Source of the DNA: a virus
Direction: 5' to 3' (one strand)
IMG/VR virus record: IMGVR_UViG_3300043602_000038
Location: 1-23,968 of that record
Length of the DNA: 23,968 nt
Each line of letters opens with the position of its first letter. The first letter of the stretch is position 1. The position numbers and the translations under genes were made by a program. The notes under the pieces were generated by a model. The model had not been told where the DNA came from, made no database searches, and saw only the letters and a list, made by a program, of their open reading frames with translations. This document shows positions 1,920-20,756 of the stretch, one piece after another.

Positions 1920-3110
1920 TTGGCCTTAGTCGTAAAATCGACGGTCCCAGCGAAGCCCGTGCCCGTGGTACCCAAGAAAGCAGACAAGTCCAAGGTGCCA
2001 GCTTCTGGCAACCTGATGGAAGTACTAGCCGGGATACGCAAGGACAAGGGCGACAAGGTGGTCGTCGCCGGGAACATGATTCCCGTTGTGCGTCGGATGC
2101 CCACGGGCATCTTCGAATTCGATTTCTATACCGGTGGCGGATTCCCTTGTGGTCGGTATAGCATCATCTATGGTCCCGAAAGTTCCAACAAGACCAATCT
2201 CTGCCTGAAGGCTGTGGCCAATGCCCAGAAACAGCCTGCCCCCTGCAACAAAGCCATCTGGGTCAACGTCGAGCAGAGCTTCGATCCCGTGTGGGCCGAG
2301 AAGATGGGCGTTGACACCACACAACTTTTGGTGGTTAATGCCGGGTATGGTGAAGAGGCCATCGATCTGGTGGATGCACTGGTCCGCGCTGAGGACGTGG
2401 CTATCGTTGTTGTTGATTCAATGGCTGGACTCATCGCGTCCAAGGAAATCTCGCAGTCGGTCGAAAACTACGACATCGGGACGTCGGCGCTTCTGATCAA
2501 GCGCATGGTCAACAAGCTCATGATTGCCTTCTGTGAAGAACAGAAGCGTGAGCATGACCCGTGTGTCATCCTGATCAACCAAACGAGATTCAAGCCCGGT
2601 GTCATGTTCGGTGATCCGGAGACCATGCCCGGTGGTGAGGCCCAGAAATTCTTGTCCAGCCTGCGAGTCCGTGTGTACGCCAAGAACATCATCGACAAGG
2701 CCACGAACACGGTGGTGTTCAAGGACACGTCGGCGGTCATCAAGAAGGCCAAGGTGCCGGTCAGGGCGTCCAGCTTTGATTTCAAGTTCTGCGTGCATCC
2801 GGTGGATGATTTGCAGATTGGTGAGACGGACAGCTTCAACACGGTCAAGTCTCACCTTCAGGCGTTGGCGAAGCTGACGAAGACGCCCCACGGGTATAAG
2901 GTGGCGAAGCTCACCTTTCCGACGTTGACCGCGATGCAGGAGCGTTACATGAAGGACAACACCTTCAAGTTGCTCTTGCAGGGCATGGTCATCGAGGCGT
3001 ATAAAGACAAGCTCATGCTCGTGGAAGAAGCGGATTTTTCACCCAAGGATGTGCAGCCGGGGACACCTGTGGGTGTGCAACCAATTGCAAACGGAGACGC
3101 TGATGGATAA
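1920..3110 (+). CDS. UvsX/RecA-family recombinase
   Basis: 396 residues, close to the roughly 390 of T4 UvsX. It would form ATP-dependent filaments on single-stranded DNA and catalyse strand exchange in recombination-dependent replication. The P-loop at residues 85-92 is GPESSNKT. The Gly that precedes Lys in bacterial RecA is Asn here, a position that is also non-Gly in UvsX-type proteins. A Walker B strand (VAIVVVDSMAGL) and a DNA-loop region (INQTRFKPG...PGGEAQKFLSS) follow. The start is TTG at 1920, fixed by AAGGAG 6 bases upstream; no ATG fits. It has its own promoter. Its 3' end overlaps the next gene by 8 bases and carries a TGCAA-N4-TTGCA element. Assignment to UvsX rather than another RecA subfamily is inference. 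Confidence 0.9.
   Translation: MALVVKSTVPAKPVPVVPKKADKSKVPASGNLMEVLAGIRKDKGDKVVVAGNMIPVVRRMPTGIFEFDFYTGGGFPCGRYSIIYGPESSNKTNLCLKAVANAQKQPAPCNKAIWVNVEQSFDPVWAEKMGVDTTQLLVVNAGYGEEAIDLVDALVRAEDVAIVVVDSMAGLIASKEISQSVENYDIGTSALLIKRMVNKLMIAFCEEQKREHDPCVILINQTRFKPGVMFGDPETMPGGEAQKFLSSLRVRVYAKNIIDKATNTVVFKDTSAVIKKAKVPVRASSFDFKFCVHPVDDLQIGETDSFNTVKSHLQALAKLTKTPHGYKVAKLTFPTLTAMQERYMKDNTFKLLLQGMVIEAYKDKLMLVEEADFSPKDVQPGTPVGVQPIANGDADG
3076..3089. promoter_or_regulatory. TGCAA-N4-TTGCA inverted repeat, copy 1
   Basis: TGCAA CCAA TTGCA, a perfect 5-bp inverted repeat inside the last codons of the recombinase gene. It sits 13 bases before the ATG at 3103 and directly abuts the ACGGAG ribosome-binding site. 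As DNA it could be an operator; as RNA it is a 5-bp stem with a four-base loop next to the Shine-Dalgarno. Three further exact copies precede other genes (8481, 13138, 22219). Confidence 0.5.
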
Positions 3111-3432
3111 GCCTGTGCCTGACATGGTCAATCTGAAGGAGATGACCGTTGGAGAGTTCATGGAGGAGTATAGGCGTCTCGGTCATGCCATTCAGACAGG
3201 TGTCGGCTACGAACACGAGTATGGGTCGCAGGATGGCACGCCCAAGCATCTGCGGACGGGTCTTGCCAATGTGATGTCCGATCTCGGTTCCATCGGTCGC
3301 CTGTTGATTGCCAAGGGTGTCATTACGGAGCAGGAGTATTTCCACGCGATTCTTGATGGACTGAAACAGGAAGTGGCCGTTTACGAGCAACGTCTGGAGG
3401 CCCGTCTCGGGTCGAAGGTCACGTTAGCATAG
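3103..3432 (+). CDS. Hypothetical small phage protein
   Basis: 109 residues, starting at ATG 3103 with ACGGAG 6 bases upstream; it overlaps the recombinase stop by 8 bases, suggesting translational coupling. The protein is soluble and mostly helical (MTVGEFMEEYRRLGHAIQTG, then LANVMSDLGSIGRLLIAKG and EYFHAILDGLKQEVAVYEQR). It has no cysteines, no signal peptide and no motif I can assign. The recurring inverted repeat immediately before its ribosome-binding site suggests specific control. Being coupled to the recombinase, it could be an accessory factor, but nothing in the sequence proves that. Confidence 0.7.
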   Translation: MDKPVPDMVNLKEMTVGEFMEEYRRLGHAIQTGVGYEHEYGSQDGTPKHLRTGLANVMSDLGSIGRLLIAKGVITEQEYFHAILDGLKQEVAVYEQRLEARLGSKVTLA

Positions 3433-3440
3433 GAGAAGTC

Positions 3441-3800
3441 ATGAGACAGATTGACATGCACCACGACGGGCACGACCTGAACGAGTCCATCGTCATTGCC
3501 ACGGACGATCCGGATCAGAGTGGTGCCGCCCATACCTATGACCTGTCCATCAAGGGCACGAAGGTGGGCCTGATTCAGTTCCAGAAGGGTCCACGCAACG
3601 AAGAGGGTTCTACGCCGGGGGTGACGGAGGCTGCGGTCTTGGCCATCCTCATTGACCGTCTCAGAGGCTTTCAGGCGGGTCCGTATGCCTGCCGGGAGAA
3701 CGCCATTCAACTCACGAAGCTGGAAGAGACGTTGATGTGGACGAAGGAACGAGCGCACGCACGAGCGAAGCGCGGGGTGCTGGGCAAGAACGTCAAGTAG
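3441..3800 (+). CDS. Acb2/Tad1-type hairpin-domain protein, candidate nucleotide sponge
   Basis: 119 residues; ATG 3441 has AGGAG 5 bases upstream. Residues about 45-116 match the conserved pattern of the Acb2/Tad1 hairpin family as I know it: FQKGP (47-51), then IDRLRGFQAGPYACREN (71-87), a helix LEETLMW (94-100), and a terminal RGVLG (111-115). Family members from phages bind cyclic di- and tri-nucleotides or NAD-derived signals in inter-subunit pockets. They thereby blunt CBASS or Thoeris defence in the host cytoplasm. The first 40 residues are acidic and less conserved. The gene lies in a small-gene run just before an inserted homing endonuclease. Family assignment is fairly confident; ligand and function are inferred, since some members of this fold are uncharacterised. 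Confidence 0.75.
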   Translation: MRQIDMHHDGHDLNESIVIATDDPDQSGAAHTYDLSIKGTKVGLIQFQKGPRNEEGSTPGVTEAAVLAILIDRLRGFQAGPYACRENAIQLTKLEETLMWTKERAHARAKRGVLGKNVK

Positions 3801-3801
3801 G

Positions 3802-4290
3802 ATGTGGCCCCGGTTTCCACCCCTAGAGTTGACGGGTCAGAAGTTTGGCACGTTGACTGTTTTACAGAGGGATAAGAGTGATAGTCATCGAACTGTTTAC
3901 TGGAAATGCCAGTGTGACTGCGGAACTATTTCTGTAGTTTCTGGTCCTCTTTTGAAAAGAGGAAGCACTAAAGGGTGTAAAGCCTGTCGCCTGATTGCTG
4001 CAAATAATGGTAGACGTACACATGGCCGCACTGGGACCAAGGAGCATTTTGTTTGGAAGAACATGCTCAATCGGTGTCGAAACCCAAAGACAAAAGGGTT
4101 TGAGCACTATGGAGGTCGTGGCATAACCGTGTGTGATCGCTGGTTGAAGTTTGAACACTTCATAGCGGACATGGGATTATGCCCTCAAGGTTTGACACTA
4201 GAACGTAAGGATACGAATGGTAATTACTCACCAGAGAATTGTAAGTGGGCGAGTTGGTCTGAGCAGAACAAGAATCGGAGACCGTGGTGA
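3802..4290 (+). CDS. HNH/AP2-type homing endonuclease-like protein
   Basis: 162 residues. The N-terminus reads LTGQKFGTLTVL followed by a zinc-ligand-like CQCDCG...GCKAC cluster (residues about 35-60). The C-terminal half has the pattern WKNMLNRCRNP, YGGRGITVCDRW, then LERKDTNGNYSPENCKWAS, a combination typical of free-standing phage HNH/AP2 homing endonucleases. Base composition differs from its surroundings: 24 of the 60 bases at 3841-3900 are G or C, whereas a 60-base stretch at 7201-7260 has 33. That supports recent insertion. It begins one base after the preceding stop with a poor ribosome-binding site, and its end overlaps the next start. DNA cleavage is known for the family; the target here is unknown. 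Confidence 0.75.
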   Translation: MWPRFPPLELTGQKFGTLTVLQRDKSDSHRTVYWKCQCDCGTISVVSGPLLKRGSTKGCKACRLIAANNGRRTHGRTGTKEHFVWKNMLNRCRNPKTKGFEHYGGRGITVCDRWLKFEHFIADMGLCPQGLTLERKDTNGNYSPENCKWASWSEQNKNRRPW

Positions 4291-9551: not shown

Positions 9552-10259
9552 ATGCGTAAGTTCGTAGGTATGCTTGCGTTGGCGATGGCGCTGTTCATGC
9601 CGCAAGTGGCGGGTGCAGCGACCATCACGTTTATGCAGTTCACCGAGGTGGTGTTCAACGCGCCGGTCACTCTCACGAATGACGGATCGGGGAACACGAC
9701 CATCACGGCGACCAACGTCTTGGTGGATGTGGGCTTGGACGAGAACTTCTGTCTCGATCCGGTGCTGTGCGGCGGGTTCGATGATACGCAGAACGTCACG
9801 TTCAACCTGAATGCCGCCAGCACGGGTGCTGCGGTGAACAACGGTGGCGTGATCAGTCAGGACTACGCGGGTACGTTTTCGTTCACGCAGGGTGGGATCA
9901 ATCTCTTGACCGTGACGTTCAGCGATGAACTGAGTGGTTCTGAGGATGGTTCCAATCCGGGCCTCAATGCGTCAGACCCGCCCGATACGTTCTCGGGCAC
10001 GTCGGACGTGCTGGACCCGGATCTGTTGGTTGCCCCGAGGGGCTTCGCGTTCAGCTTCTCGGCGTTCACCAGTGCTGGTGACGGTGGACTCGTGATCGTG
10101 AATAACTCGGTGGCGTCAGCGACGGCTGATATCTCGGGCACGCTCAATGCCAGTCCCTTGCAGGTTAGCGAAGTGCCAGAACCGGCTTCGCTGCTCCTGA
10201 TGGGGTCGGGTTTGGCGGCTATCGCGTCTCGCGTTCGTCGGCGTCGGAAGTCCAGCTAG
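9552..10259 (+). CDS. Secreted PEP-CTERM-anchored protein
   Basis: 235 residues. An N-terminal signal peptide (MRKFVGMLALAMALFMPQVAGA) is followed by a Thr/Asn/Ser/Gly-rich beta domain with few charges. The C-terminus (about 208-235) has the full PEP-CTERM tripartite signal: VPEPAS, a hydrophobic helix (LLLMGSGLAAIAS) and a basic RRRRK tail. In hosts with exosortase, this tag directs cleavage and surface or extracellular-matrix attachment. Two cysteines (FCLDPVLCGG) could form a disulfide. It depends on host sorting machinery, as no exosortase is present here. The gene stands apart between hairpins, like a cargo gene taken from a host. Family is confident; the biological role is unknown. Confidence 0.9.
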   Translation: MRKFVGMLALAMALFMPQVAGAATITFMQFTEVVFNAPVTLTNDGSGNTTITATNVLVDVGLDENFCLDPVLCGGFDDTQNVTFNLNAASTGAAVNNGGVISQDYAGTFSFTQGGINLLTVTFSDELSGSEDGSNPGLNASDPPDTFSGTSDVLDPDLLVAPRGFAFSFSAFTSAGDGGLVIVNNSVASATADISGTLNASPLQVSEVPEPASLLLMGSGLAAIASRVRRRRKSS

Positions 10260-14811: not shown

Positions 14812-16782
14812 ATGCTGGTTTTCAAACGGGGTTCGGGTAAGTCTCTGAGTCCAGAGAAGATCGATGAAAAGCGTCTGGATGAGGTGAACGACCGTGCTCA
14901 CCTGTATCTACGAAAGTTTCTTGGCCCCGATGCGGCTGAGAAAATCTGGGAGACCGGTCAGAAGATTACCAACCTGAATGAACGGGCGATGTTCTACGCC
15001 CAGACCGTGGTGCATGTCGAGAGCGAGTTAAGTGGGAAGCCGTCGCCTGCCAAAGACTTCGTGCAGTATCGGTGGAAGCCTGTCGGGATCAGAGAGTTCA
15101 TCTGTAGTCCGGACTTCCTGAATAAAGAGAAGGAAATCTATCCCGGTGTGCTGGAAGCCGCTGAGGAGTTGAACGGTGGTGGCTACGTTGAAGCCATCAT
15201 GACCGGAGGCATCGGCTCAGGCAAGACCACACTGGCGCTTTACACGAACGCCTACCAGTTGTACCTGCTGTCCTGCATGCACTCTCCGCACAAGCAGTTT
15301 CGATTGGACCCATCGTCGGAAATCCTGCTCGTGTTCCAGTCCATCACGAAGACGTTGGCGCAGGGCGTGGACTACCAGCGGTTCCGCAGCATGATTGAGG
15401 GGAGTCCCTACTTCCACAAATACTATCCGTTCCGGAAAGACCTGACGAACAAGCTCGTGTTCCCGAACCGTGTGGAAGTGATCCCGATCTCCGGTGCGGA
15501 GACTGCCGCCATCGGCCAGAACGTGATGGGCGGTCTCATTGACGAGTTGAACTACATGGCCGTCGTGGAGAAATCCCGAGTGGCCGTTGATAAAGGAACC
15601 TATGACCAAGCCATCCTCGTCTATAACTCGATTGCTCGACGTCGAAAGTCGCGCTTCATGGAGAATGGCAAACTACCGGGAATCCTCTGCCTCGTATCTT
15701 CGAAGAAATATCCGGGGCAGTTCACTGATCAAAAGGTTGCCGAGGCAGAACGCGATGCGACGATTTTTGTCTATGACAAACGTGTCTGGGATATAAAGCC
15801 AGAGGATTTCGGCAATCAGGGGTGGTTCCAAGTCTTTGGCGGGACCATGACCCAGAAGCCACGGATTCTGTTCAAGGATGAAGAAGTTCCGGACGATGAT
15901 CGACCGTTCGTGGTGTCGGTTCCGGAAGAGTTCCGGCTGGAGTTTGAGAAGGACGTCATCAACGCCCTGCGAGAAATAGCCGGTGTCTCTACGCTGGCTC
16001 GTCATCCGTTCTTCTTGGAAGTCAACAAGGTCCACAAAGGGTTCACGACACGCCAGTCTATTTTCAGTCAGCCTGTTGTAGATTTTGTGGCGCAACGGTT
16101 GACGCTGTTGAAGGGAAATTTCTGGAATCCCGAGGTGCCGAGGTTCGCCCATTGCGACTTGGCGCTGAGCGGGGATAGTGCTGGTTTGGTGGTTGGTACG
16201 GTCACGGGATTCAAGAATGTGTCGGGAGACAAGGGACAGCCTGCGTTCATGCCGAACATTTGGATCGATGGTGTCTTGGAGATACGGCCACCACGGAATT
16301 GCGAAATTTTGCTGAGTAAGGTCCGAGAGGTGATCATTGTCCTGAAGAAGATGGGACTGAACATCATCTGGGTGACGTTTGACCAGTTCCAGTCCAGCGA
16401 CTCACAGCAGATTCTGCGGCAGCAGGGTTTGATCACGGGCCACCAGAGCATGGATGAAATGCCGTGCCGAGCGTATGACTTCACGAAGACGGCATTCTAC
16501 GAAGGTCGGATAAATTGCCCGACGCATTTGAAGGTTCAACGTGAAATTCTGATGCTGGAAAAGGACGTGAAGACCGGGAAAGTAGACCACCCACCCGGTG
16601 GCAGTAAGGACTGTTCCGACGCCTTGGCTGGAGTAACGTATGGTTTGACCATGCGGCGAGAAATTTGGGGGCTGTATCGCATTCCGACCCTGATGATTCC
16701 GCAAAGTGTTTACGCCAACGTGGACAAGCTAAAGAAGGAACAGGAACAGCCTACGTACCATGCGGTAGAGGAGAGTGCCTGA
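14812..16782 (+). CDS. terL: Terminase large subunit
   Basis: 656 residues, a normal size for TerL. The ATPase half has Walker A GGIGSGKT (about 132-139) and Walker B GGLIDELN with D244 and E245. The nuclease half has the acidic residues of the RNase H-like fold, D449 in AHCDLALSGDSAG and D603 in KDCSDALAG. It powers packaging into the procapsid and cuts concatemers. The small subunit is immediately upstream and a second large gene begins at the stop codon (1-base overlap region), so the three are transcribed together. No portal gene follows directly, which is unusual. Confidence 0.93.
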   Translation: MLVFKRGSGKSLSPEKIDEKRLDEVNDRAHLYLRKFLGPDAAEKIWETGQKITNLNERAMFYAQTVVHVESELSGKPSPAKDFVQYRWKPVGIREFICSPDFLNKEKEIYPGVLEAAEELNGGGYVEAIMTGGIGSGKTTLALYTNAYQLYLLSCMHSPHKQFRLDPSSEILLVFQSITKTLAQGVDYQRFRSMIEGSPYFHKYYPFRKDLTNKLVFPNRVEVIPISGAETAAIGQNVMGGLIDELNYMAVVEKSRVAVDKGTYDQAILVYNSIARRRKSRFMENGKLPGILCLVSSKKYPGQFTDQKVAEAERDATIFVYDKRVWDIKPEDFGNQGWFQVFGGTMTQKPRILFKDEEVPDDDRPFVVSVPEEFRLEFEKDVINALREIAGVSTLARHPFFLEVNKVHKGFTTRQSIFSQPVVDFVAQRLTLLKGNFWNPEVPRFAHCDLALSGDSAGLVVGTVTGFKNVSGDKGQPAFMPNIWIDGVLEIRPPRNCEILLSKVREVIIVLKKMGLNIIWVTFDQFQSSDSQQILRQQGLITGHQSMDEMPCRAYDFTKTAFYEGRINCPTHLKVQREILMLEKDVKTGKVDHPPGGSKDCSDALAGVTYGLTMRREIWGLYRIPTLMIPQSVYANVDKLKKEQEQPTYHAVEESA

Positions 16783-18470
16783 TGTCGAGTTTCATGTCCT
16801 ACGGACCAGATGGTACGTTGGTCGGCGGCTTCAGACCCCTAAAGATCAAGCCACGTGGTGGCACGTGGCAAACCATTTCCGACACATCCTGTAACACGCC
16901 TGCATGGTTGAACGAGAAGGTCGTCATCTATCAGCAGAACGCCTACGACTCGGTGAAGGCCCAGAGTGATATGGAGATCGTGCTCCGTAGCATGCTGGCT
17001 GAGAACAAGATCAGTGAGTTCGAATACGCCCAGATCATGGGTGAGCCAGCCGAACTCGCCAGCCCAGAACAGAAAGCTCCGGTGTACCTGAAGACCACGG
17101 ATGGGCAGACGTTTGGTCGTGGAGCCAGCGTGTTGTTCGCTGGTAATAATCGGTGGGTGTCGCAGTATTCGATGAATCCTTGCACGCTCTACGACGGTAT
17201 GGACCGCACGATGATCGGAGACGTCCGAGCCACGGATGCTCAAGGACGCCCGATAGAGTGGTGGGGAGCCGGTCAGCATGGTGTCGGTGTGGACGGCACG
17301 CTTATCTATTGCCCCCGCTACCACGAAGGTCGCAGCGTCATCGTAGAGTTGTCTGACCGGACAACACTCATCCGTGATGAACGGGTGCTGGTGACCACGA
17401 CGTCGGTGATTGATCGCAATGCGGCGGTGTGTTGGGCGGCGGCTAAACCATCGCATGTGTGGTTCTGGAATGGGGAGTACTTCAAGGAATACCCGATAGC
17501 CTTCCCGTCCTATGGCGGTTCGATCTTCAGAGGGAGTGACCAGAAAATCTATCTGGTGTATGCCTCTGGCAAGTTCGAATACTGCATCGTCCACAAATTG
17601 GAAGACCCCACCAAGGGCTGGTGGTTTGGGCGCGAGGAGAAAGCCTACAACGGATGCGGGTGGACTGACATGGCCACCGGCAAGATGTGGATTGCATGGT
17701 CGGAGAACGCTGGAGCGACGTCGGAGTCGGTCATCGAGAAAGAACTAACGGGGCTGGCTCAGCCGTGGCCTGCGAAGCCCATCATTATCCCGGCCTTCGA
17801 AAAGACCGCACTGAAGATTGGCGTGGGGCTGTTCGATGATCTGAAAGGCCCACGCATCATCGACTACAGCGAGAAGCCGTCCAGCAATGTGGAGGCGGTG
17901 TTCTGGGATATTCGTAGCGGTGAGACGAAGGATGAGGCCAAGCGGCTGGCCGCGAGTCTCAAGGTGGGAGCCGAAGCCTATCGAGACGGGTACGGGATGA
18001 CCGTCACGCAGGTACCGAGTGGCTTCCGAGCACTCGTGTTCGCCTACCCATCTGCCGCCATCAGCGTGGATGAATCCGTAAACAAAGTGAAGGCTGTGCT
18101 CAAGGAGATGAAGGCCAAGCACATCCCGAGAGACATGGCGCTGGCGATGTATTGCCAGTACCGCGCACCGGGTAACTATGCTCTGCCACTTCAGAAAGTG
18201 CTCGACACGCTCACGAAGATGTGGAGTCTGGGCATCGACTACGAAGTGGGAGCGATGTGGTGCTTCACGAAGTATCGACGTGACGGCACGACACTCGTGG
18301 ATGGCGTGGACTATTGGCCAGAACTGCAAGAGGCACTGGACCGCATGAAGAAAGCGTCTGGAAATTGGGAGTGGTTCCCGCCGTTCAGTTCTGCCATTCC
18401 ACCGATTGAACCACCGAAGCCCCCCGTGGGAACACGTCCGTGGTTTCCCAAGATGAAAAGGTTCATGTAA
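16782..18470 (+). CDS. Large virion-associated-type protein A with C-terminal FPKMKRFM tag
   Basis: 562 residues. ATG 16782 overlaps the terminase stop; GAGGAGAG is a strong ribosome-binding site. Residues 1-350 contain repeated aromatic/Gly beta patterns (GNNRWVSQYSM, GVDGTLIYCPRYHEG, SDQKIYLVYASGKFEY, ATGKMWIAWSENAG) suggestive of a beta-propeller or carbohydrate-binding fold. Residues 365-540 are alpha/beta (GPRIIDYSEK, VFWDIRSGETKDEAKRLAASL, ALVFAYPSAAISVDESVNKVKAVLKEM) and could be a TIM-barrel hydrolase-like domain. A Pro-rich linker leads to GTRPWFPKMKRFM at the very end (550-562). I cannot name a family. Position and domains suggest a receptor or tail component. The product ends exactly at the tag shared with the next two proteins. 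Confidence 0.75.
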   Translation: MSSFMSYGPDGTLVGGFRPLKIKPRGGTWQTISDTSCNTPAWLNEKVVIYQQNAYDSVKAQSDMEIVLRSMLAENKISEFEYAQIMGEPAELASPEQKAPVYLKTTDGQTFGRGASVLFAGNNRWVSQYSMNPCTLYDGMDRTMIGDVRATDAQGRPIEWWGAGQHGVGVDGTLIYCPRYHEGRSVIVELSDRTTLIRDERVLVTTTSVIDRNAAVCWAAAKPSHVWFWNGEYFKEYPIAFPSYGGSIFRGSDQKIYLVYASGKFEYCIVHKLEDPTKGWWFGREEKAYNGCGWTDMATGKMWIAWSENAGATSESVIEKELTGLAQPWPAKPIIIPAFEKTALKIGVGLFDDLKGPRIIDYSEKPSSNVEAVFWDIRSGETKDEAKRLAASLKVGAEAYRDGYGMTVTQVPSGFRALVFAYPSAAISVDESVNKVKAVLKEMKAKHIPRDMALAMYCQYRAPGNYALPLQKVLDTLTKMWSLGIDYEVGAMWCFTKYRRDGTTLVDGVDYWPELQEALDRMKKASGNWEWFPPFSSAIPPIEPPKPPVGTRPWFPKMKRFM

Positions 18471-18480
18471 AGGTGACCTG

Positions 18481-19776
18481 ATGAATCATAGAGCGTGTAA
18501 TAACACAGGTGGTAGGTTCGTGGCCAATGGTCATCGTGTGACATTTGGTGGTGTCCCGTACGATGTTCCGCCTACTCCGTATACACCGGACATGCACGGG
18601 CCGTTGGTGGCATTCGCGTCTGCTGAGGATATCGGGACGCCTGAGTTTGGGACGTGGTTCATGCGGTCAGGTGAACAGCCGTTCCGCCCCACGGGTATTA
18701 ACTGGCGTTCATGGTGGCCCGGTCGGTTTGCTCCTGATGGCACGTATTACATGAGCGGGAAGCGTGGCGATCTGGATCAGGCGAGTGGACGGGCGTCCTA
18801 CTGGATGATCAGGACTGGGCAAGCGGCGGGTCCGTTCGCCACGGGCACCACGAACATCGAAGGCATCAGTGACTTCAAGGCTGATGGTCACGGTGGGTGG
18901 ATGCCGGTGTGGCAAAACAGGGGCAAGCCTCTCATCGTGGAAATCAATCGCACGCAGTATCGATTGCCGCTGTGGACGCAGGCCGGTGAGTGGCTCTACG
19001 GACAGATGACCGGAGCCTACGGAGACCAGCACATCACCAGAGATCCGAGCGGTGTGTGGAGACTCGTGACGACCAAGACGCCACCCCCCATCTTTCCCTG
19101 CGTGAAACAACAGCAGGACGGATCATTGCTCGTGGCGTGGGTGGGTGACAAGGAATCATTCATCTCATCGCATGATGGATGGCCGGTGCTGGTCATTGCG
19201 CCACCCGTGGTGAAGCCACCGAAACCACCCATCGAACCACCCATCGAACCACCGATTGAACCACCTGTTGAGCCACCGACTGGAACACGGTCACTGTTTC
19301 CGAAAATGAGGCGATTTATGAGTGAGACTGAACTGCAAATTCGTGGAGTCCAGAAGCAAGTGAATTGGAATCCAGACTTGGACGGCAAGGGCCATCGTCC
19401 GATCTGGGGGTCGATTCGTCCCGGTGCGTTTGATCAGCATACCGGTGAGGGCACCGTGATCATCGGGTCGCCCATTTCGAACGATGAAGTGGACCCTGAT
19501 TTGCGTCCGGAAGGACCACAGGATGACGGCGTGGATGAGTCCACGTCGCTGCAACTCAGGATGCGTCCCGGCGAACAGGAAGAGGGACAGGGGCAGCGCA
19601 TCGACGTGCAGTTCGTCAACGGTGACCAGTATCAGTTGACGGAGATGCCCGGTGGCGAATTGCAACTTCGTCGCAAAGACGCCATCGATTTGCAGGAACT
19701 GTGGAACGACGGCGTGTTGCAGAACGTGGAGCAGATATTCCACATGAGCGGTACGGCGCTCCGCGTGATTCGATGA
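18481..19776 (+). CDS. Protein B: propeller-like domain, PPIE linker, FPKMRRFM tag, C-domain
   Basis: 431 residues; AAGGTGACCTG before ATG 18481. Residues about 30-235 repeat short DGxxxxxW-type turns (FAPDGTYYMSG, DPSGVWRLVTT, QQDGSLLVAWVGD), consistent with a beta-propeller or glycan-binding fold. Residues about 245-265 are a PPIE/PPVE repeat, followed by GTRSLFPKMRRFM (268-280). The rest (281-431, from SETELQIRG) is an acidic/Gln-rich domain (EGPQDDGVDES, GEQEEGQGQRIDVQFVNGDQYQL). Met280 is an ATG with GAGG 4-5 bases upstream, so internal initiation could give a separate 152-residue product. The function is unknown; a tail or host-recognition protein is inferred. Confidence 0.7.
   Translation: MNHRACNNTGGRFVANGHRVTFGGVPYDVPPTPYTPDMHGPLVAFASAEDIGTPEFGTWFMRSGEQPFRPTGINWRSWWPGRFAPDGTYYMSGKRGDLDQASGRASYWMIRTGQAAGPFATGTTNIEGISDFKADGHGGWMPVWQNRGKPLIVEINRTQYRLPLWTQAGEWLYGQMTGAYGDQHITRDPSGVWRLVTTKTPPPIFPCVKQQQDGSLLVAWVGDKESFISSHDGWPVLVIAPPVVKPPKPPIEPPIEPPIEPPVEPPTGTRSLFPKMRRFMSETELQIRGVQKQVNWNPDLDGKGHRPIWGSIRPGAFDQHTGEGTVIIGSPISNDEVDPDLRPEGPQDDGVDESTSLQLRMRPGEQEEGQGQRIDVQFVNGDQYQLTEMPGGELQLRRKDAIDLQELWNDGVLQNVEQIFHMSGTALRVIR
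19205..19280 (+). repeat. 12-bp tandem repeat encoding PPIE linker
   Basis: Successive near-identical 12-base units (GAACCACCCATC and variants) encode KPPIEPPIEPPIEPPVEPP, about five copies. A shorter version ends the preceding gene (18403-18426). Such repeats are prone to length change and can serve as recombination points between neighbouring genes. Confidence 0.7.
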
Positions 19777-20756
19777 GGGCGTGGTTCCCGAGGATTCCCC
19801 GGTTCATGGTGACGGCAGTTCAGCCTCTGCCGCCACCGATGATGCCGGGAGAGTGGCCCACGTCTTCACCGGAAGACCAAGGTATGTCGTCGGCCATGTT
19901 GAACAACATCAAGGCGGCATACATCGGAGATGCCGCCATCGTCAGAAACGGATACTTGGTCAAGACGTATCGAGATGCCACGAAGAAGCGTGGGTGGGCA
20001 TCGTGTTGCCGGTCGGTTGTGTCCGATACGGTGATCGGGCATGCGTTGACCCATGGGCACATTCAGGGTGGTCTGCCGATGCTGGACAGGCCACTCACCG
20101 AGTTAGGCGTCGATGTGGCGGGTTACAAACATGGTACATACCTACACCACCCGTGCTCGTACACCCGTCCCGGTGAGGGCTGGGGCTACAGCAAGGACTG
20201 GGTACCTACGTCGTCGGCGCACAATGGTCTGTTCGTGAGGCTGACTCATCGCACGATGCACGATTACTTCAATCAGGAACTGGCCCCGCACATGCCCGGT
20301 GTGTGGTCGGTCATGAACAGCGGTGATGGTACACCACGGTTCGATGCCACCCCGATAGACGCCTGCCGGTGGGCATGGATGTGGCTCCTGCATGGAGCGG
20401 GTCTGGTTGACCCGGAGTTCGTCCGTAGGAGCATCGCCGGGGGTCCGCTGGGGGATGGCAACCCCAACCCTGTGGAGGGCTTCCAGACGCACCTGAGTCG
20501 GAATGGGGTGGCATGGGAGCTTGACCTGTGGGGTGTCCCAGATTGCTTCATGGCACGGGATGGGGGTGACCCCGGTAGCACGGTGGGCGCGGTGATCGGC
20601 ATTCCGGAACTGAATCTGGCGGTGGCGTATCGGAGCCAGTACCACTGTGATACGTTCCTGAAGGATATCTGCGATGCCTGTCATGACATTGCCCCGATGA
20701 TGATTGGCCCAGCCCGAGGTATCAAGAAGATGCGGAGGTCGAAGGCCACAGTGTGA
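19773..20756 (+). CDS. Protein C: diverged serine-hydrolase (beta-lactamase-fold) with RAWFPRIPRFM start
   Basis: 327 residues, starting in an ATGA overlap with protein B. After MRAWFPRIPRFM, the chain reads EWPTSSPEDQGMSSAMLNNIK...IVRNGYLVKTYRD, like the start of class-C beta-lactamase/esterase-fold proteins. The position of SxxK is filled by SCCR (in GWASCCRSVVSDTVIGHAL) and the YSN region by GYSKDW. GPLGDGNPNPVEGF and a C-terminal GAVIGIPELNLAVAYRSQY strand fit the fold's final sheet. The catalytic Lys is Arg, so it may be inactive or altered, for example a binding protein or an esterase with another mechanism. The fold call is by pattern, moderate confidence. Initiation at Met12 (19806) is also possible. 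Confidence 0.6.
   Translation: MRAWFPRIPRFMVTAVQPLPPPMMPGEWPTSSPEDQGMSSAMLNNIKAAYIGDAAIVRNGYLVKTYRDATKKRGWASCCRSVVSDTVIGHALTHGHIQGGLPMLDRPLTELGVDVAGYKHGTYLHHPCSYTRPGEGWGYSKDWVPTSSAHNGLFVRLTHRTMHDYFNQELAPHMPGVWSVMNSGDGTPRFDATPIDACRWAWMWLLHGAGLVDPEFVRRSIAGGPLGDGNPNPVEGFQTHLSRNGVAWELDLWGVPDCFMARDGGDPGSTVGAVIGIPELNLAVAYRSQYHCDTFLKDICDACHDIAPMMIGPARGIKKMRRSKATV

Follow-up and report, generated by a model that had tools for sequence, protein, structure and literature searches.

The closest described systems for the phage protein considered here are the Tad1 proteins (Thoeris anti-defence 1) and, with far less likeness, the Acb2 proteins. Three dimers make up the Tad1 hexamer, and the order of elements in its chain is β1-β4 followed by α1-α2 (PMC12043709). 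gcADPR and cyclic dinucleotides are bound in pockets to which one protomer contributes loops and its C-terminal tail and the other its helices; the trimer interfaces bind cyclic trinucleotides (PMC12043709). Among Tad1 homologues, the binding of cyclic trinucleotides and gcADPR is kept, while the range of cyclic dinucleotides varies (PMC12043709). SBSphiJ7 Tad1, from a Bacillus phage, is an experimentally studied anti-Thoeris protein (PMC12043709). Solved structures are available for the Tad1 of a Clostridium botulinum prophage (cbTad1; PDB 7UAV, 7UAW, 8SMD, 8KBE, and 8KBF) and for CmTad1 (PDB 8KBB, 8KBC, and 8KBD). Acb2, known from T4 Vs.4 (PDB 7UQ2) and Pseudomonas p26 (8H2J), has the helical hairpin family in common with the protein described below and lacks an N-terminal β-sheet.

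The tad1 homologue lies at positions 3441-3800 on the plus strand of the window, that is, the whole stretch of 23,968 nucleotides analysed, which makes up the entire IMG/VR virus contig. In the ORF listing it starts with ATG and has 119 codons, encoding a protein of 119 amino acids. A Shine-Dalgarno-like TAGGAGAA is located 3 bases 5′ of the ATG; the preceding gene is 8 bases away and the following gene 1 base away. A promoter scan gave nothing useful near tad1, and a scan of the whole window yielded no tRNA or Rfam match. The original prediction of an Acb2/Tad1-type sponge was based on the motifs FQKGP, IDRLRGFQAGPYACREN, LEETLMW, and RGVLG, all of which are found in the product in the claimed order. 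The gene has a 98% relative in L001, a 42-kb contig that carries the window's neighbourhood around tad1. The two copies differ by 1, 2, and 17 changes at codon positions 1, 2, and 3, mostly third-position changes, which correspond to a dN of 0.011 and a dS of 0.24. This third-position bias and the low dN relative to dS indicate that the tad1 frame is under purifying selection. The notion of a degenerate or nonfunctional tad1 relic has practically nothing to recommend it, as the frame is intact, dN/dS is about 0.05, and the invariant residues of the family are retained.

The 119-aa protein is a member of the Tad1 sponge family, a well-supported and ordinary assignment; proteins of this family sequester small cyclic nucleotide signals with which bacteria respond to infection. 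Homology to characterised Tad1 proteins was found with cbTad1, SBSphiJ7 Tad1, PHROG 2428, and a profile of relatives. All solved chains of cbTad1 were retrieved by phmmer from the PDB sequences (E=5e-19), and CmTad1 was retrieved by PDB sequence search at E=3e-13; across the hairpin (residues 44-119), the protein and cbTad1 agree at 40 of 76 residues. PHROG 2428 matched residues 11-119 at E=7e-25, and this value, together with that of cbTad1, shows that the motif likeness is not a matter of chance. SBSphiJ7 Tad1 is similar in the hairpin (E=1e-21, 44% identity over 79 residues) but differs in having 142 aa, an extended N-terminal part, and a loop of 13 residues. The profile built from 17 viral relatives reached cbTad1 at E=8e-31, its N-terminal part included. 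Across 44 aligned relatives, F47, Q48, G50, P51, G60, F77, Q78, G80, R104, R108, R111, and G115 are invariant. As a separate observation, a Tad1 profile also matched the C-terminal half (residues 114-227) of gp184 (PDB 8Y6V chain I, 230 aa) at E=1e-19; thus, a structure has been solved for a longer phage protein that contains Tad1.

The Pfam model of the Acb2/Tad1 hairpin (PF24729) recognised the protein at 20.3 bits (E=0.00063), below its gathering cutoff of 27 bits and hence short of Pfam membership, so that an annotation by Pfam only would miss the gene. The anticipated match to an Acb2/Tad1 profile was therefore obtained, though under the cutoff, and the PHROG search pointed strongly to Tad1. 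The same model gives 71.4 bits to T4 Acb2 (Vs.4) and 34.2 to SBSphiJ7 Tad1, and at E<=0.01 it matches 27 of the 44 aligned relatives and leaves 17 without a match; these differences indicate that PF24729 leans towards Acb2. Since its score is sub-threshold, the protein is not filed by PF24729, and the tests for Tad1 are independent of this model. PADLOC and NCBIfam contain no model that matches the 119-aa protein.

The fold gives the same indication. The AlphaFold2 monomer, predicted from the alignment of 44 relatives, has a mean pLDDT of 93.9 and a pTM of 0.84. DSSP of the model assigns strands at residues 2-4, 17-21, 32-37, and 40-47 and helices at 63-79 and 85-110, and this E-E-E-E-H-H order agrees with the β1-β4, α1-α2 succession of Tad1. 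The best 20 Foldseek matches are all Tad1, headed by cbTad1 with 1″-3′ gcADPR (E=1.8e-10, TM 0.86), and the first match after the Tad1 set has E=1.1. In the VIA comparison, cbTad1 is aligned with Z 13.7 and an rmsd of 1.7 Å over 115 residues at 38% identity, as against Z 7.5 for the best unrelated row; CmTad1 has the same fold (Z 12.3 over 115 residues) at 30% identity. The alignments with cbTad1 by VIA and Foldseek span residues 2-119, and thus cover both the N-terminal antiparallel β-sheet and the two long helices of a Tad1 protein. The likeness to cbTad1 extends over the full-length fold, whereas the overall identity in structure alignment is 38-39% and the sequence of the N-terminal sheet is largely different.

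The hairpin expected in the monomer is accordingly present in the AlphaFold2 model, and so is an N-terminal β-sheet domain (residues 1-47; 3441..3581, plus strand), which is defined by the alignments, the profile match, and the model strands. This bears on the earlier impression that the first 40 residues were not obviously family-like, which did not hold: they build the Tad1 β-sheet and carry a G28-A29-x-H31-x-Y33 signature that at least about 90% of relatives retain. In the relatives whose alignment runs through these positions, most keep R2, N14, D22, P24, G28, A29, H31, and Y33, and cbTad1 carries GGAYHEY in the N-terminal part reached by the relatives' profile. The N-terminal region is more variable than the hairpin.

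The sheet is also what separates the protein from Acb2. An Acb2 identity, namely, a hexamer built of the hairpin alone and adapted to the cyclic dinucleotides and trinucleotides of CBASS, would account for the shared hairpin family PF24729. T4 Acb2, however, with its 88 aa, has nothing like the N-terminal sheet seen in the 119-aa protein, and sequence likeness between the two is barely detectable: BLASTP with T4 Vs.4 gave a match of 12 residues only (E=0.029). The phmmer and Foldseek matches are Tad1 chains, none of them labelled Acb2; conversely, T4 Vs.4 used as a PDB query retrieves Acb2 chains and not Tad1. With 119 aa and an N-terminal sheet in place of a hairpin-only chain of about 90 aa, and with similarity to Vs.4 limited to 12 residues, Acb2 was rejected as the identity of the protein and is very improbable. 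Of the joint Acb2/Tad1 call, the Tad1 part is retained, the PHROG, PDB sequence, and PDB structure searches all being strong, and the Acb2 part is dropped.

The FQKGPRNEEGSTPG loop (residues 47-60; 3579..3620, plus strand), delimited by the relatives' alignment and the cbTad1 sequence, has 14 residues. Its length is 13 in 30 of the 44 relatives, 14 in 11, and 15 in 3; cbTad1, which was crystallised with gcADPR, also has a 14-residue FQKG loop of similar letters, with FQKGA where the phage protein has FQKGP. The Acb2/Tad1 helical hairpin (helices 63-79 and 85-110; 3627..3770, plus strand) is placed by the sub-threshold PF24729 match, DSSP, and residue mapping. Within it, F77, N87, R104, and R108 align with F82, N92, R109, and R113 of cbTad1, the presumed ligand contacts there. 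F77, R104, and R108 are invariant in the 44 relatives and N87 is found in 41 of them, so that the pocket residues of a Tad1 are in place at these four positions. The cbTad1-like loop length and these conserved residues make a cbTad1-like ligand range the best guess from sequence. An alternative is a Tad1 fold with a shifted ligand preference, for example, for cyclic oligonucleotides with little gcADPR binding. The varying length (13, 14, or 15) and sequence of loop 47-60 within the family leave room for such a shift, as do the differences in cyclic dinucleotide range among Tad1 homologues (PMC12043709). It is nonetheless rather unlikely, given that the loop matches that of the gcADPR-bound cbTad1 crystal in length, with similar letters, and that the presumed contact residues are conserved.

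On this homology, the tad1 product is very probably a Tad1 signal sponge, and its assembly, ligands, and effect on infection can be proposed from the characterised members. The 119-aa protein would most likely assemble as the Tad1 hexamer of three interlocked dimers. Each pocket would be formed by loops of the N-terminal sheet and the C-terminal tail of one protomer, together with the helical hairpin of its partner, and would accommodate 1″-3′ and 1″-2′ gcADPR and perhaps cyclic dinucleotides. Cyclic trinucleotides would be bound at the two trimer interfaces. Because the sponge would hold these signals but not cleave them, Thoeris ThsA would stay inactive during infection, as might the effectors of CBASS. 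We thus infer from homology that the protein may have anti-Thoeris or anti-CBASS activity.

In the window, tad1 is part of a co-oriented run comprising a helicase, a MerR-like gene, a RecA/UvsX-like recombinase (1920-3110), a 109-aa gene, tad1 itself, an HNH endonuclease, a Holliday junction resolvase, an exonuclease, and RuvC. The 109-aa gene upstream (3103..3432, plus strand) has no assigned function; it has no PHROG match, a longer reading (3049-3432) has no Pfam match, and its counterpart in L001 stands at 91%. The HNH endonuclease gene (3802..4290, plus strand; PHROG 374, E=2e-57) begins 1 base 3′ of tad1. In L001 and L002, a MazG-like gene takes its place (6369-6731 in L001; Pfam PF12643, sub-threshold).

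The comparison with L001 singles out tad1. Its DNA identity is 94.4%, against 82% for the upstream gene, 84% for RecA, and 71-89% over the compared neighbours, a difference that suggests the exchange of a one-gene cassette. Third positions differ in 17 of 119 codons in tad1, in 42 of 109 in the upstream gene (Fisher p=4e-5), in 40 of 122 in the resolvase (p=8e-4), and in 133 of 367 in RecA (p=4e-6). Identity climbs sharply at about 3427, just 5′ of the tad1 ATG, and divergence is immediate on the 3′ side because the window has the HNH gene where L001 has the MazG-like one. The simplest reading of these sequences is that recombination recently exchanged tad1 without its neighbours; co-conversion driven by the HNH endonuclease is possible. 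The conserved gene order around tad1 is shared solely with L001 and L002, and the other viral loci are without the tested neighbours, except for HNH genes that a few of them have elsewhere; tad1 is therefore mobile across phage backgrounds. A more speculative proposal, which we hold to be improbable, is that the window's clade, marked by a 14-residue FQKGPRNxEGSTPG loop, forms a Tad1 subgroup with a ligand range unlike that of the tested Tad1 proteins, moving as a one-gene cassette beside the HNH endonuclease/MazG-like site.

A DNA search of a phage collection with the whole window gave a short RecA match only, and hence no named phage relative. Nine tad1 relatives at 39-47% identity occur in genome contigs of Verrucomicrobiia, Sphingomonas, Piscinibacter, Oscillospiraceae, and others; scattered as they are over unrelated bacteria, they allow no host assignment. 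Elsewhere in the window, positions 9552-10259 encode a 235-aa protein that begins like a signal peptide and contains the PEP-CTERM sorting motif (Pfam PF07589, E=8e-7), which is unusual in a phage contig. It has a relative in L001 (83% identity in the matched segment, 69% query coverage) and no match among 50,697 phage records, and may point to an exosortase-bearing host. Downstream of a terminase-like gene, three large consecutive ORFs (16665-18470, 18481-19776, and 19701-20756) have in common a motif, [WL]FP[KR]xxRFM, placed at the C-terminus, in the middle, and in the N-terminal part, respectively, with sites at 18441-18467, about 19310-19350, and 19782-19808. A degenerate DNA pattern for it, derived from the same copies, has 2 matches in the window and 0 in shuffles; none of the three ORFs has a Pfam or PHROG match.

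The locus contributes a well-supported Tad1 carried by an uncultivated lineage of phages, and the presence of this protein implies gcADPR-type (Thoeris) or CBASS signalling in the host group. Tad1 proteins are under-detected by the Pfam hairpin model alone, as 17 of the 44 aligned relatives miss even E=0.01. A mosaic pattern limited to one gene would, in turn, fit counter-defence genes that move independently of their neighbours.
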